Notes under the pieces: generated by a model
Seen by the model: only the letters and a program-made list of their open reading frames with translations
Databases searched by the model: none
What the model was told of the DNA's origin: nothing
Made by a program: the position numbers and the translations under genes
Part shown: in pieces, positions 30,563 through 37,052 of the stretch
How the letters are laid out: every line of letters starts with the position of its first letter
How positions within the stretch are numbered: the stretch's first letter is position 1
Source of the DNA: Candidatus Theseobacter exili
Lineage (GTDB): Bacteria; Auribacterota; JACPWU01; Theseobacterales; Theseobacteraceae
Assembly (NCBI GenBank): GCA_030765365.1
Contig: JAVCCS010000092.1
Span: forward strand, 1 to 37,052
Direction of reading: 5' to 3'
DNA length: 37,052 bases

Positions 30563-31132
30563 TTATAAAGGTCTAGATGAAAGAACCTTTTCTACTCTCT
30601 TATCTCTTTTCCACATACCAAGTTTATTTTTTTTAGCCTCGTTTTCCAGCCTTTTAAATTCTGCAGAATATTTGAGATTAGGCTTAATTGTAAGAACGCT
30701 TGCAAATCCCCTTTTAACAAGTTCCCTGTTAACGAATACGTCAGCTACGAACACATGCGCTAAAAGTCTTCCGTATTTGTCTCTTTTCTTAACATCAAAT
30801 TCCAGTCTTACTTTTTTTCCTTTTACCATCCGCATATTTTCATAAAAGGCCTCTTCAGCATAAGGCTCAGGATCTTTAATCCATTGATTTCCATGCCGGC
30901 GACGCTTTTCCGGTGTATCTATACCCAGATACCGGACTCTTTCTCCGCCTTGTATTTTAATTGTATCTCCGTCAACAACCCAGGTCACAAAGTATTCGCC
31001 AGGTTTTGTTTTAACAGGTTTACTTTCTTGCGGAATAGCTATTGTTAATATTCGTCCAGTAGCAAAGACCAAACACAACAATGCTGCAGAACCAACAGCA
31101 AAATATTTCAAACCACGCTTTACTTTTTCCAT
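30563..31132 (-). CDS. Membrane-anchored or secreted thermonuclease (SNase family)
   Basis: This 189-residue protein has a hydrophobic N-terminal segment (FAVGSAALLCLVFATG) as signal or anchor, then a staphylococcal nuclease-like domain. VDGDTIKIQ, VRYLGIDTPEKRRR (catalytic Arg and Glu), KRDKYGRLLAHVFVAD (second catalytic Arg), VNRELVKRGFASV and KNKLGMWK are all present, so a calcium-dependent nuclease active outside the cytoplasm is expected. GGAG lies ten bases before the ATG. Confidence 0.92.
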   Translation of the reverse strand: MEKVKRGLKYFAVGSAALLCLVFATGRILTIAIPQESKPVKTKPGEYFVTWVVDGDTIKIQGGERVRYLGIDTPEKRRRHGNQWIKDPEPYAEEAFYENMRMVKGKKVRLEFDVKKRDKYGRLLAHVFVADVFVNRELVKRGFASVLTIKPNLKYSAEFKRLENEAKKNKLGMWKRDKRVEKVLSSRPL

Positions 31133-31235: not shown

Positions 31236-32159
31236 ATGACTAAAAAAAACTGCTCAATTGATATTGGAACAAATTCTGTAAGATTTCTCGTAACTGAACT
31301 GAAAAATGATCGCCTAATAATTTTGGACAAAGGCGGGCGCATAACACGCTTGGGAGAAGGCGTCAGCGGTACGGGAAACTTAATTCCCGACGCATCAAAA
31401 AGAACTCTGGAATATCTGCGCAGCTTGCGCAACCATATACTGAAATTTGGGGAAATACATATTACCGTTGCCGCAACTGAAGCAGTCAGAATTGCGAAAA
31501 ATGCTTCCCCTTTCCTTGATGAAACCGGAAAGATACTGGAAACCACACCAAAAATCCTATCAGCAGCTGAAGAAGCATATTTATCATTTCTCGGAGCTTC
31601 TGATTGCATGGAAAAATCCGATAAAACGCTTTTTTTTGATCTTGGAGGAGGAAGCACGGAACTGATAGGAGTTTCTGCGGGGACTGTAAAATGGAATAAA
31701 AGTTTAAAAATTGGTTCAGTTACTGCTTTTGAAGATTTTCTAAAGTCTGACCCTCCATCGCCAAATGAGATGAACGCATTAAAGAAACACTCAATTAAAG
31801 TGTTCAAATCAAGTCTGCTTAAAAGCTGGCAGCCGGATTCAGTTATAGGCATTGCCGGAACAGTAACAACACTGGCGGCAATCAGTCTTGGACTTAAACA
31901 ATACAATTCTGACAAGGTTCATAAACATGTCATAACCATAACTGAACTTAAAAGCATTTTTGAAAGGTTATCCGGAATTACCGCAAACGAACGACGGAAT
32001 ATTCCCGGTGTACCTCCCGGCCGTGAAGATATAATTGTGACGGGATGCTTAATCACACTTGAATTACTTAAATTATCAAATGCTAAAAAATTCATTGTTA
32101 GTGACAGAGGGCTGCTTTACGGCCTTGCAAAAGAAGCTTTTAGTTCCAATTCATTCTAA
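31236..32159 (+). CDS. Ppx/GppA-family phosphatase (short form)
   Basis: This 307-residue protein has the ASKHA fold of exopolyphosphatases and pppGpp phosphatases. Phosphate loop 1 is SIDIGTNSVRFLVTEL, followed by RLGEGVSGTGNLIPDA, ATEAVRIAKNASPFL, the second loop LFFDLGGGSTELIGVS, and GIAGTVTTLAAISLG. It lacks the C-terminal HD domain of long Ppx proteins. Substrates could be polyphosphate, pppGpp or both. AAAGGATG precedes the ATG. A 248-residue frame on the other strand is a shadow. Confidence 0.92.
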   Translation: MTKKNCSIDIGTNSVRFLVTELKNDRLIILDKGGRITRLGEGVSGTGNLIPDASKRTLEYLRSLRNHILKFGEIHITVAATEAVRIAKNASPFLDETGKILETTPKILSAAEEAYLSFLGASDCMEKSDKTLFFDLGGGSTELIGVSAGTVKWNKSLKIGSVTAFEDFLKSDPPSPNEMNALKKHSIKVFKSSLLKSWQPDSVIGIAGTVTTLAAISLGLKQYNSDKVHKHVITITELKSIFERLSGITANERRNIPGVPPGREDIIVTGCLITLELLKLSNAKKFIVSDRGLLYGLAKEAFSSNSF

Positions 32160-32323: not shown

Positions 32324-35300
32324 ATGTCTATACATTTTTTTGCTCAAAAAAGGCGAGGCTATATTAATAGTACAGCTTTGCTTATTACTGCAGCCATGGT
32401 ATTCACTCAATGCATAATCCCCTATAAAAGTTTATCGGCATTAACAGGTACTCCCCATGCAAATTCAGCTAAAATTCCAGCGTTTGATCCAGCCTCTATT
32501 CCCGCTGCTTTCTGTCACATCGGTGAACAGTTCGGCAATGACCCTGTCCCATCCTTTTTTCTCATAAAAGACCTTCACTGTCATTTTGAAGCCCAAATGA
32601 ATATTTCCAGGATAATTGATGTAATATCAGGCAAGTACTCCGTTAACCTGGTCTTGGTCGAGGGCGCAACAGGGTTGATAGACACCTCACTGTTTGCCGC
32701 ATTTCCCGACAATAAGGTCAAGCGCCAGGTTGCAAGTGAGTTTGTAAAAAAAGGCCAGGTAACCGGTCCGGAGTTTCTGTCTATTACCCGTGAGAAAGAG
32801 CCTCCGCTTCAACTCTACGGTCTGGAAGACGAATCTGTTTACCTTGATAATCTCAAAGCGTTCAGGAACACGCTAAAAGAACGTGAATCAACGGACCTCA
32901 TTATTGGCCTGATGATGGAAGCGCTTGATAGAATAAAATCAAATTGTTACCCTAAACCACTGCTTAAACTGGACCAGATGATAACTGACCAGGAACTCGG
33001 TCAAATTTCCTTCATCGAGCTATCAAGACATATTATTACCGATGTCGAAAAACTGCTTGGCAGTTCTGCAATAGACACATATCCCAACACAAAAATCCTG
33101 GCTCAATCACTTGAAGAACAGGACCATTTCAATATTGACATGCTGAAAAAGGAACGTACTGCGCTTCTAGAAGAACTCGAACAGTCTCTCGTTAAGGAAG
33201 ACCTTGCAAAGCTTGTTAAACAAAGTCTTGCTTTCCGACTTGGAAGAATAACTGCTGCGGATTTTTTTACAAGTCTTGAGGAAATGATTCCTGATGAAAT
33301 GAAAGACAAGGCAAAAAGAAACAATCCAAATTTATTCAGATATATACTCGTTCTCAGGCTCCAGTCAGAAATAGATAACACATCCCTCATGGATGAAATA
33401 GAAGAGCTGGGTACAAAGCTGAAAAAAGAATTATTCACTTCACCCCTGGAGCACCAGGTTGATGACACTTCTAAAATCATACACGTGCTCAGGAAGCTTT
33501 TTCACCTGGAAGTTAACCGTGATGAATTGTCATTTTTCCAACAAAATGAGTCCAAATTCCAATACCCGGCTCTTAAAGCCATTTTAGATCTACTGGCCAA
33601 AGAAACCGATGCTGAAATCCCTGCCCTTATGAAAGAAAAAGATTTCGCACAAATCGCAGACCGTTCAATAAATTCTGCAACAGGTTTTTACAGCGCAGCC
33701 ATCAGACGTGACAATGTTTTAATTGAAAACGCACTTAGCAAAATGAAAGAAGAAAAGGCTTCTTCTTCAATAATGCTGTCCGGAGGATTTCACACACTTG
33801 GCATTACCCGTATCCTTAGAGAAAAGCAGAAATCCTATGTCGTAATTACTCCTATGATTACTACTGTTTCAGAAAACACTCCTTACCAGGCAATTATGCT
33901 GGACGACCGCCTTGACGCATATATTTCAGGTCAAAACAATGCTCTGGCTTCAATGTCTAACTTCAGCAACTTTTTTTTTAATCAGCTTGTTGCCTTAGAG
34001 ATTCGTGCTGAAATGGCCGACGAAATGGTAAGTGAATATCTTTCCACGCAGGACGATGACGTAGAGGTGCTGTTTAAAAAATGGCAGGCGGACGCTGCTA
34101 AAAAGAAAGTCAGCATGGAAACTCTTGAAGCAATAGACAAACTTCGCCGTGCTGTCACAAAAGCAATTACAGTCCGGGGACCGCCTGCTCTTTCTAACGA
34201 TGTCATTGAAAAACTTGTTGCACCAGGCGGCCTGACAGCAGAAATGACTCTTGCCTACCTTGAGGAAAGTGTTAAGACAAATCCCTCAAAGGAAAACACT
34301 GCTGCTTTACAATTCGCAAAAAGTCTTGTTCCTGAATCTGAGGGAGCAGATCCGGAAGAGGGAAACATTTCAATAGGCACTGTTGAAAATTTTGAAGCAA
34401 ACGTAAACATTGAATCGCATCTAGACCTATTCGATAAGGTGGTTGGTCAATATCACAATAATCCAGAAAATAATCCAACTAATATTGTAGAAATCAAAGA
34501 CGCAGACGGACGTGTACTTCTGCAGGAAAACAACGGAGCAATTGCACTGTACGGAAAGGCAATCATTGGCTCTGCTAAAGGACAAAGCAAAAATTATAAA
34601 GCTTTTCATGATCGCAATATTAAATTCATAAGAGCTAACCTATCACCTGAAGCTCAAAATTTCCTGCGTGAACTTGCGGCCATGGAAACTGAATTAGAAG
34701 CTGACGCCAGGAAAAAAACCGGTGCAAAATTGACTTATTTAGAACGAGACCGATTGTTTAGAGCACTAAACAGTGCCCGTTTTGTTATTCTTAAGGCCCC
34801 ATCAACTATATTAACTACCGAAGTGTCAGAAGATAATCCAATTTGCCAAGCTTATCTTCATTCAGGCAAAGGAACTCCTGCTTCAAAAAACACTCCAAGC
34901 ATTTATTCCACAGGAATGGTTATCGGCGCCCTTTCCCGGGAACGGTCTGCCTTTACAAATGCAATGGTTCATGAGCTTTGGCACCTGGCAGACCTGTCTG
35001 AAGGAAAGCCTTTAACTGCCGAAAAAGAAAAGGAAGCCAGAGCTGTCGCAAGAAAATTCACACCGGGTGATTCTTCAAAAAACATACAAGCTGGAGAGCC
35101 TCTGCTAGACCATATTTTATCAGACATAATGCTTGAAACCCTCGCCGCAAGCCTCCCTTTCGACTCTCGCAAGGCTTTTGGCGACAGAGTTAAATCTCTG
35201 CGCAGAATGGGGAAAGCATATACACTGGATACAATAAGGAACTTAAGTGCTGAAAATCCTGAAGAACTTGTTGCATTTGCAGAAATGATTCGTGATGTAC

Positions 35301-37052
35301 CAGATACTTTACCGGTACCGGCTATTTTTGAACTTCCTGATGTGGATAATAAAATCTACTTTCCCGAATTTGTCGGTGAGTTTGGTGAGTTTATCGCAAC
35401 CTTTCTTGAAGAACATAAATTTGTTGTTGACGGTCAACCTCTACAGCCGGAAGATTCAAAAATTTTGAAAACTATTATCATAGATATAATAAAGGCAGGA
35501 GGAAGAAATTTCGGGTGGAACAGGCTTTCAATAGTACGGCTTGTTCAGCTAATGTACGATCCAAGAATAAATCCTGTTGTTGTAGACCTCATCAAGCTAT
35601 ACAAAGGTGTAGGCGGTGTTGGTTTTGTAGTTGAGGGAATAGATACAACAAAAAAGGCTACCCGTGCAGAATATGCAAAACACCTAAAAGAAACACGGGG
35701 ACGCCTTGCTGAACTTTTTCATGCCTTGTCTCTTCAGGTCGGACATTCGACACCGCTGGAGATTGCTTCTTTAAGCCTCACTGTCCGTGAGGTAGACAAA
35801 TCCAGCGCTGAACATAGAAAGGCGCGTGCTGAAATAGACGCTCTTTTTGAATCAATTCCTGAGGATTCACCCGCAAAACCATTATTAAGCGAATTTAAGG
35901 ACTGGTACAGTTATCAGAATGTTGATAGAGAAGGCGGCATAGTTGCATGGATGAAAAAAGAAGCCAAAAAGAAACTGGTGCAACTTGCAAACAGCAGATG
36001 GCGAGGACGCTGGCCGTCGGCACTCAGCGCAGTTCCCAGCGGAACATTCAGCCAGATGTGGGATAAAGACTTAACTTTCGCCTTTACAATTCCGCATCAG
36101 CTCATGGAAGCATGGGTACAGCACATGCATCAACAGGAACTTGGGGATGTCAGGAGAGAAGCAGGAAGGCAGGCCAAGACCAAAGTATCAGACATTAAAA
36201 GGGCGGTTAGCAGGGAAGCCCAGCTGGAAGCCAGGCGCAGAATAAATAAGGAAGGCCTTACCACCCCGTTCCAGAATTTAAAAGAACAAATATTTCAAGA
36301 GAAAATGAAAGAAAAAGCTCTAGATATCGTTACAGAAGAAAATGCGGAAAGAAAGATAATCAGCGGCACTTCAACCCCTGAAGCAGAACTTGTCCTGCAT
36401 TATTTTGATGAAATAAACATGGGCCTTTACCAGAATTTCTTCAATAAGCAGGTAGAGTATTATGAATCAAGAATTAGAAGGGCTCTTGAAGCTGACCAGG
36501 ACCTGGCAGGTCTTTCCCTGGAAAAATTTAAGATTTTTTTAGTTGATTTTGGCGAAGAACGACTTGTTCTTGATCATGACGCCCGATTCTCTGACCCTAA
36601 TAGAGAATGGACACGCAGAACACTTGCTGCAAATCCGTTTAACCGCAGCAATTTACCTGAAAATATTAAAGAAGCACTGCCGCAAACCACTGAATCGGAT
36701 GCGGCTTTAGTCAATCTTCGCAGTCTTGTATCGGGCGATGATACTTTACAGAATGCAATGGCAAAAGTTGAAGATGATATGGAAACAGCAAAAGATGAAT
36801 TTCAGAAAAGCATCCTGGATTACCTTGGATTAACCATTGATGACTCTGAACTTATGACCAGAACAAAAGATGGCGAAAGTGTTGGATGCGGTTTTTCATT
36901 GCGCGACCTGTTTTTCCTCAGGTTTAAAAATCAGCGCTCTATAATACTTGAAGAGGCAAGAAAATCTGGAACAGCTGTTTTGCAGGAAGCAATAAACAAG
37001 TCCGCCAGTCGTATAATAACCAGGATTGCTTCACAGCAGGACAACCCGGATC
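32324..37052 (+). CDS. Giant exported protein, partial: TraB/ChaN-like N-terminal region plus HELWH metalloprotease motif
   Basis: I translated this frame from the ATG at 32324 (in-frame TAA nine bases upstream) to the window end: 1,576 codons, no stop, so the C-terminus is missing. A hydrophobic segment at residues 16-34 (STALLITAAMVFTQCIIPY) suggests export. Residues about 75-500 contain KDLHCHFEAQMNISRIID (83-), LVLVEGATGLID (109-) and MLSGGFHTLGITRILREK (484-), an arrangement resembling TraB/ChaN/TIKI-like proteins, where a late GxxH is conserved. At 883-887 HELWH in NAMVHELWHLADLSEG is a zinc-protease motif; a third ligand may lie in DIMLETLAASLPF. Beyond about residue 1200 the sequence is mostly charged helix. 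Overall function is unknown; from memory, similar giant proteins occur in Omnitrophota and related phyla. Confidence 0.85.
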   Translation, partial: MSIHFFAQKRRGYINSTALLITAAMVFTQCIIPYKSLSALTGTPHANSAKIPAFDPASIPAAFCHIGEQFGNDPVPSFFLIKDLHCHFEAQMNISRIIDVISGKYSVNLVLVEGATGLIDTSLFAAFPDNKVKRQVASEFVKKGQVTGPEFLSITREKEPPLQLYGLEDESVYLDNLKAFRNTLKERESTDLIIGLMMEALDRIKSNCYPKPLLKLDQMITDQELGQISFIELSRHIITDVEKLLGSSAIDTYPNTKILAQSLEEQDHFNIDMLKKERTALLEELEQSLVKEDLAKLVKQSLAFRLGRITAADFFTSLEEMIPDEMKDKAKRNNPNLFRYILVLRLQSEIDNTSLMDEIEELGTKLKKELFTSPLEHQVDDTSKIIHVLRKLFHLEVNRDELSFFQQNESKFQYPALKAILDLLAKETDAEIPALMKEKDFAQIADRSINSATGFYSAAIRRDNVLIENALSKMKEEKASSSIMLSGGFHTLGITRILREKQKSYVVITPMITTVSENTPYQAIMLDDRLDAYISGQNNALASMSNFSNFFFNQLVALEIRAEMADEMVSEYLSTQDDDVEVLFKKWQADAAKKKVSMETLEAIDKLRRAVTKAITVRGPPALSNDVIEKLVAPGGLTAEMTLAYLEESVKTNPSKENTAALQFAKSLVPESEGADPEEGNISIGTVENFEANVNIESHLDLFDKVVGQYHNNPENNPTNIVEIKDADGRVLLQENNGAIALYGKAIIGSAKGQSKNYKAFHDRNIKFIRANLSPEAQNFLRELAAMETELEADARKKTGAKLTYLERDRLFRALNSARFVILKAPSTILTTEVSEDNPICQAYLHSGKGTPASKNTPSIYSTGMVIGALSRERSAFTNAMVHELWHLADLSEGKPLTAEKEKEARAVARKFTPGDSSKNIQAGEPLLDHILSDIMLETLAASLPFDSRKAFGDRVKSLRRMGKAYTLDTIRNLSAENPEELVAFAEMIRDVPDTLPVPAIFELPDVDNKIYFPEFVGEFGEFIATFLEEHKFVVDGQPLQPEDSKILKTIIIDIIKAGGRNFGWNRLSIVRLVQLMYDPRINPVVVDLIKLYKGVGGVGFVVEGIDTTKKATRAEYAKHLKETRGRLAELFHALSLQVGHSTPLEIASLSLTVREVDKSSAEHRKARAEIDALFESIPEDSPAKPLLSEFKDWYSYQNVDREGGIVAWMKKEAKKKLVQLANSRWRGRWPSALSAVPSGTFSQMWDKDLTFAFTIPHQLMEAWVQHMHQQELGDVRREAGRQAKTKVSDIKRAVSREAQLEARRRINKEGLTTPFQNLKEQIFQEKMKEKALDIVTEENAERKIISGTSTPEAELVLHYFDEINMGLYQNFFNKQVEYYESRIRRALEADQDLAGLSLEKFKIFLVDFGEERLVLDHDARFSDPNREWTRRTLAANPFNRSNLPENIKEALPQTTESDAALVNLRSLVSGDDTLQNAMAKVEDDMETAKDEFQKSILDYLGLTIDDSELMTRTKDGESVGCGFSLRDLFFLRFKNQRSIILEEARKSGTAVLQEAINKSASRIITRIASQQDNPD

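Follow-up and report, generated by a model that had tools for sequence, protein, structure and literature searches.

The stretch of DNA analyzed here (the window) is the 37,052-nucleotide contig JAVCCS010000092.1 of Candidatus Theseobacter exili (Auribacterota; GenBank assembly GCA_030765365.1), and it ends in an open reading frame (ORF) encoding the first 1,576 residues of a giant protein (32324–37051, plus strand, as are all features of this gene given below). The N-terminal domain of this protein, hereafter the leader, is the constant N-terminal module of a large family of paralogues distributed over Auribacterota, Omnitrophota, and Elusimicrobiota, in which a conserved active site is followed by tails that vary from copy to copy. 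The ORF is reasonably likely to be the start of an exported giant protein, in which a TIKI-type hydrolase leader outside the cytoplasm would be coupled to a variable second module.

A search of the same genome with the whole protein returned 19 places, the window and 18 others. The 18 paralogues matched the N-terminal part only (residues 36–532, up to residue 670 in the paralogue C138), on frames of 654 to 5,100 amino acids, several of which end at contig ends. The closest paralogue, C138, is 50% identical up to residue 670 and unrelated beyond; the linker common to the two proteins (approximately residues 536–670; 33929–34333) is the last part for which any homologue was found. Within a phylum set of 44 Auribacterota genomes, which takes in Candidatus Auribacter fodinae, nine carried the leader, one of them with as many as 48 matches, a count to which a large copy may contribute more than one match, and leader-bearing frames reached 24,620 amino acids. 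A wide scan over one genome per bacterial and archaeal species yielded at least 416 confirmed leader loci, the best 80 of which belong to Omnitrophota, Auribacterota, Elusimicrobia, a few other bins, and one labelled Clostridia. The initial annotation of this gene had proposed comparison with the giant proteins of Omnitrophota and Brocadiales; the first lead was a good one, and no Brocadiales link appeared among the 80 best-matching loci listed.

In all of the approximately 120 domain-bearing ORFs from the fetched loci, the leader is N-terminal and only a signal-like segment precedes it. Where the N-terminus is present, the leader starts mostly at residues 28–168, and the tails behind it range from 0 to more than 3,300 amino acids before the fetched locus ends. 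No description of the leader domain was found in the open-access literature searched.

The leader of the window protein (residues 52–537; 32477–33934) carries the ordered signature Asp/Glu-x-His…Glu…Gly-x-His, which at least 98% of 135 copies retain. Family members are approximately 20–57% identical to the window copy, the 135 copies mostly 20–32%. For the putative first catalytic pair, Asp83-x-His85 (32570–32578), Asp is found in 125 and His in 126 of 127 relatives. Glu113 in VEGA (32660–32662), 28 residues past His85, is conserved in 128 of 128 relatives, and the candidate second catalytic His, His490 in GGFHT (residues 487–491; 33785–33799), which aligns with the GxGH of ChaN, in 128 of 129. 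In addition, the acidic position after the third core strand, Glu168 in LYGLE (32825–32827), is Glu in 121 and Asp in seven of 128, and Arg462 in AxxRD (33707–33709) is invariant (129 of 129). The motifs noticed initially were all correctly placed, DLHCH at residues 83–87, VEGA at 112–115, and HELWH at 883–887, as well as GGFHT.

An AlphaFold model computed with an alignment of the 14 own-genome copies folds approximately residues 52–537 confidently (predicted local distance difference test score, pLDDT, 89.7), as beta-alpha core strands with a long helical insertion. The model places Asp83/His85, Glu113, and His490 at strand ends and Glu168 after a later strand; Asp83-x-His85 comes directly after the second predicted strand (model residues 29–34, model residue 34 being residue 83), and His490 sits after the last long helix and strand. 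The TIKI enzymes, some of which are proteases, have a 2His/2Glu active site with its residues in this order, and the 28-residue spacing from His to Glu is the same in RRSP (His3902 to Glu3930) and in Bcr135 (His85 to Glu113) (PMC6254334).

The leader-family alignment was compared by hhalign with a ChaN alignment built in this analysis, and matched it over the GGFHT region (P 9.9e-6, probability 82). The positive control, ChaN against Ere, was as strong (P 1.8e-5, probability 78), and an unrelated alignment, used as the negative control, gave P 0.18. In a Pfam scan, PF04187 (ChaN) matched 10 of 50 leader-family members weakly (best E 6e-4). No PF04187 match above the gathering cut-off was obtained for the full ORF or anywhere in this genome, which rules out membership of the ChaN Pfam family itself. 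The conserved, ordered residues, the 28-residue His-Glu spacing, and the ChaN profile match suggest that the leader probably represents a new family within the TIKI superfamily, its active site complete, with ChaN as the nearest family tested. The initial label of TraB/ChaN-like thus holds at the superfamily level, by the DxH…E…GGFHT order, the ChaN profile, and the confident fold, and does not extend to the Pfam family.

As in ChaN/Cofac_haem_bdg (PF04187), a G/D-E/D-x-H motif lies past the first core strand, a Glu follows approximately 28–30 residues on, past the second, and G-x-G/F-H comes after the last core strand. In contrast to ChaN, the leader is approximately 490 amino acids long, with a helical insertion of approximately 300 residues separating the third core strand from the last, has Asp for Glu at the first position, carries invariant FYxxAxxRD and GGFHTxG motifs, and is followed by giant tails. 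Ere (PF05139)/Bcr135 shares the His-Glu pair, the 28-residue spacing of Bcr135 (PMC6254334), and a long helical insertion, whereas no Ere-family match was found across this genome; membership of the Ere Pfam family was rejected, as the profile similarity to the leader is not significant. The RRSP and Tiki proteases, compared by published residue positions only, share the 2His/2Glu-type site (PMC6254334), whereas none of their appended domains is common to the leader family.

The window protein begins with a signal-peptide-like N-terminus (residues 1–32; 32324–32419), recognized from hydropathy, which consists of a basic n-region and a hydrophobic segment (19-residue window at residue 14, mean hydropathy 1.71). 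A hydrophobic signal-like segment was present in 123 of the 126 copies with an N-terminus, 116 of which also have a net positive n-region. In addition, Cys makes up 0.30% of the tails, compared with 0.93% of ordinary neighboring ORFs shorter than 1,000 amino acids, and this low content fits proteins outside the cytoplasm. These results support the export signal claimed at the outset, and with it the predicted export of the window protein.

Membrane-like segments were absent from approximately two-thirds of the tails and present in approximately one-third. The latter fraction would agree with a giant adhesin or coat, as has been proposed for Omnitrophota giant ORFs (PMC10066038), in which the leader would be merely a conserved targeting or anchoring domain with relics of enzyme residues. 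However, near-perfect retention of the active site over 135 divergent copies is unexpected in a relic, and stand-alone leader copies without any tail exist; an adhesin or coat is considered improbable.

The tails of the own-genome paralogues did not match one another, except for the pairs C136/C105, through repeats, and C136/C202, together with small pieces. The repeat common to the C105 (L029) and C136 (L013) tails is internal, with offsets of approximately 93 amino acids and 35–45% identity. Pfam scans of these tails identified phosphoesterase, GNAT, and HAD domains in the C138 tail, glycogen phosphorylase and a histidine-kinase ATPase in C257, PGK and FBPase in C105, an enolpyruvyl transferase in C202, PPDK and kinases in C274, and AAA in C82. 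Tails in other genomes contained phosphoglucomutase (five of 25), as well as NTP transferase, iPGM, UDPGP, PGK, enolase, aldolase, PGI, glutamine synthetase, SecA-like, and M23 domains. In four of 14 partial tails from A3 members, which are predicted exported giant proteins, there were putative SecA-like DEAD and preprotein cross-linking domains.

The enzyme-type tails differ in how far their motifs are preserved. For the C105 PGK, the sequence is degenerate, with NMNVS for DFNVP, NGRW for LGRP, and no RAHAS. For the C202 domain (L021:11168-12520), the best match is MurA, over EPSP synthase, and the catalytic Cys is kept in PGGC. For the R3-B46 frame L161 (G006:C19:127500-145500; 4,427 amino acids), a signal-like segment and the leader are followed by six tandem glutamine synthetases, an arrangement noted also for L134. 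All six copies in L161 keep NGSGMH (at 1301, 1852, 2409, 2962, 3513, and 4071) and HHEVAP; the type-I enzyme is normally a ring of six members.

Identity between the C105 PGK and the housekeeping copy of this genome is only 29–39%, indicating an old capture of PGK by C105. Among the 44 Auribacterota-set genomes, PGK in a giant frame was found only in C105 and the others have a housekeeping copy only, indicating that PGK-type tails are not universal; an extra giant-frame PGK as a general trait of Auribacterota was thereby ruled out. Phosphoglucomutase tails were likewise rejected as a general Auribacterota trait, as they were seen at Omnitrophota loci but at none of the Auribacterota set.

In one Omnitrophota clade (L086, L088, L109, L131, and L140; support 100/100), the leader is a separate gene, with a large second ORF no more than approximately 250 bp downstream. 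This second ORF has its own signal-like segment in L086, L088, L109, and L131, and not in L140 as read. For the L088 partner (L088:11424-18923; 2,500 amino acids, with a signal-like segment), the domains identified were PFK, a GatZ-like aldolase (weak match), GAPDH in which SCTTN and HAYTTDQ (catalytic Cys and His) are intact, and PGK with DFNVP and HLGRP. In the same protein, a stretch resembling the PGK C-terminus (STGGGA) precedes the PGK N-terminal part, perhaps by circular permutation. PGK or FBPase together with GatZ-like domains were also observed downstream of stand-alone leaders at L086:11416-13794, L131:11514-15443, and L140:2202-5768. An LRPxS-like motif past the partner signal segments was present in only six of 157 signal-like ORFs.

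That leader and tail occur either fused or as neighbors points to a joint function. One form of it would be processing, in which exported giant proteins are cut by the leader, which would act on its own tail in cis or on a neighbor in trans and thereby mature or release the tail modules. The five-locus clade, where leader and large ORF are linked in trans as they are elsewhere in cis, and the existence of proteases among TIKI enzymes (PMC6254334) agree with such a role. However, the tails have no common sequence for one protease to recognize, no common cleavage motif was found at the leader-tail border, though it was not systematically sought, and no large ORF directly follows the stand-alone copies L032 and L089 within the stretch read. 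Processing is regarded as an unlikely function of the leader.

For the window protein's own tail, searches of 98 genomes and of every fetched tail found no homologue of residues 680–1576, and comparison of the ORF with Pfam, NCBIfam, and PDB sequences gave nothing meaningful. Matches to uS8 and TAFII55 were dismissed as noise, and a PGK- or GAPDH-type enzyme was rejected for want of a Pfam match. The HELWH motif (34970–34984) lies in a predicted helix of a single-sequence AlphaFold model of its region that failed (pLDDT 39.9). Glu900, Glu902, and Glu904 (35021–35035), 13–17 residues past His887, are candidate third zinc ligands, guessed from spacing. The remainder of the tail (residues 1051–1576; 35474–37051) has no detectable homologue and runs past the contig end. 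The long charged helices initially described in the tail are doubtful, since charged residues make up 27–30% of the tail compared with 26% of the N-terminal domain, and the single-sequence model of the tail is unreliable.

With no relatives and a failed model, the claim of an HELWH metalloprotease was not borne out in this copy directly. Both facts, as well as the approximately three HExxH motifs that composition predicts in 178,000 residues of tails, make it quite possible, if short of probable, that the HExxH pattern of HELWH arose by chance in an unrelated helix, with the tail forming a zinc-free structural or adhesive scaffold. Against chance, HExxH occurs 26 times in 166,000 residues of tails (15.7 per 100,000, compared with 8.0 in neighboring ORFs), whereas HDxxH occurs three times, HKxxH never, and HQxxH once in the same tails, and several of the HExxH motifs belong to groups of related sequences of the kind typical for zincin helices. 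These numbers and the clustering indicate that most HExxH motifs of the family are not due to chance, and some of the tails are probably metalloproteases. In light of this enrichment and clustering, a metalloprotease in the HELWH part of the window protein is plausible and somewhat favored. The combination of motifs, initially called unusual, is so in that the exact pairing of leader and HELWH is unique to the window gene; in the family at large, however, the leader is always N-terminal, in most cases with a long variable tail behind it, and HExxH recurs in such tails. Separately, the L096 tail contains three HExxH motifs, two of them within a 45%-identical duplicated domain that is also found in L120, C136, and C157.

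The window spans the whole of contig C142, one of 334 in a 2.76-Mb metagenome-assembled genome, and the missing stop codon is therefore a limit of the assembly. The last 200 bases of the contig matched no other contig of the same genome, which places the stop outside this assembly. The fragmented assembly and the position of the ORF at a contig edge would allow an assembly or frame artefact. However, the ORF starts with an ATG at 32324 and stays open over 1,576 codons, for which the chance probability at this composition is approximately 10^-43, and it maintains the codon-position GC pattern of the window's ordinary genes through its last codon, which confirms the initial claim of an unbroken frame. 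The presence of homologous leaders on giant frames across many independent genomes argues in the same direction, and an artefact is exceedingly improbable. Upstream of the ORF, at 31236–32159 and 30563–31132, lie ordinary genes, with a Ppx/GppA phosphatase on the same strand; beyond it are an SNase-type nuclease, a PurN-type formyltransferase, and HisG, all on the opposite strand.

The giant ORFs of Omnitrophota and related bacteria are characterized by Seymour et al. (2023; PMC10066038) as showing little conservation and having no known role. The leader family resembles them in being very long, exported or surface-located, sparsely annotated, and poorly conserved in the tails, and the window gene itself shares their length, predicted export signal, few domains, and Omnitrophota-related lineage. 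In contrast, no common leader was reported in that study, whereas here one leader unites hundreds of such proteins, and part of the tails are recognizable cytoplasmic-type enzymes. Giant ORFs in these bacteria are already known; neither the unifying leader nor the exported enzyme-type tails turned up in the literature searched.

Polymorphic toxins are similar in having a constant exported N-terminal part, a variable C-terminal part, and many paralogues per genome, and differ from the leader family, whose tails run to thousands of residues and contained no recognized toxin domain in the scans made. No small immunity-like gene was consistently present downstream at 36 complete members (the window copy leaves the contig), which rules out a classical polymorphic toxin.

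In the mechanism proposed for the family, the giant protein would be exported by Sec with the leader at its front, and the leader would hydrolyze a bond outside the cytoplasm, most likely a peptide bond, the type cleaved by Tiki and RRSP. The tail would supply a gene-specific second activity or binding site, in the window protein probably an HExxH metalloprotease, and the tail repertoire may serve interaction with other cells, whether prey, host, or competitor. This last step is suggested by literature connecting giant ORFs of these lineages with predation or symbiosis (PMC10066038) and by the finding that GAPDH and PGK secreted by the predator Myxococcus xanthus are inhibitory to the growth of E. 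coli (PMC10141889). The more specific reading, that the family is a class of exported giant proteins whose TIKI-type leader acts in cis or in trans with extracytoplasmic central-metabolism enzymes to interfere with or feed on other cells, has one experimental parallel, that of M. xanthus, and is put forward tentatively, as a possibility with the odds against it.

Several observations weigh against the exported TIKI-type hydrolase. Export is predicted from hydropathy and Cys content, and a peptide bond as the target is presumed by analogy with Tiki and RRSP. The leader compared with Ere alone did not show significant profile similarity, and its first catalytic residue is Asp, whereas that of RRSP is Glu. 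A Foldseek search of the leader model against PDB gave no significant match, mostly helical bundles, with EreC/Bcr135-type entries only at E ~1, below the helical-bundle noise. In the Pfam scan that gave the weak ChaN matches, PAH_ZNF598 matched 17 members (best E 3e-6), more than ChaN, probably through the helices. In addition, nothing in the window itself points to predation, and the self-processing, toxin-like, adhesion, and predation roles suggested initially are hypothetical.

Overall, the constant leader provides a common handle that defines the family and makes giant proteins countable across genomes. As a small, soluble piece of approximately 490 amino acids that also occurs as a stand-alone gene, it makes the putative enzyme activity directly testable. 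Tails in which glutamine synthetase or GAPDH sites appear intact although an export signal precedes them pose the unexpected question of what role such enzymes would have outside the cytoplasm. The leader marks out a large family of giant proteins in a group of uncultured bacteria, differing widely in their tails and undescribed in the literature searched.
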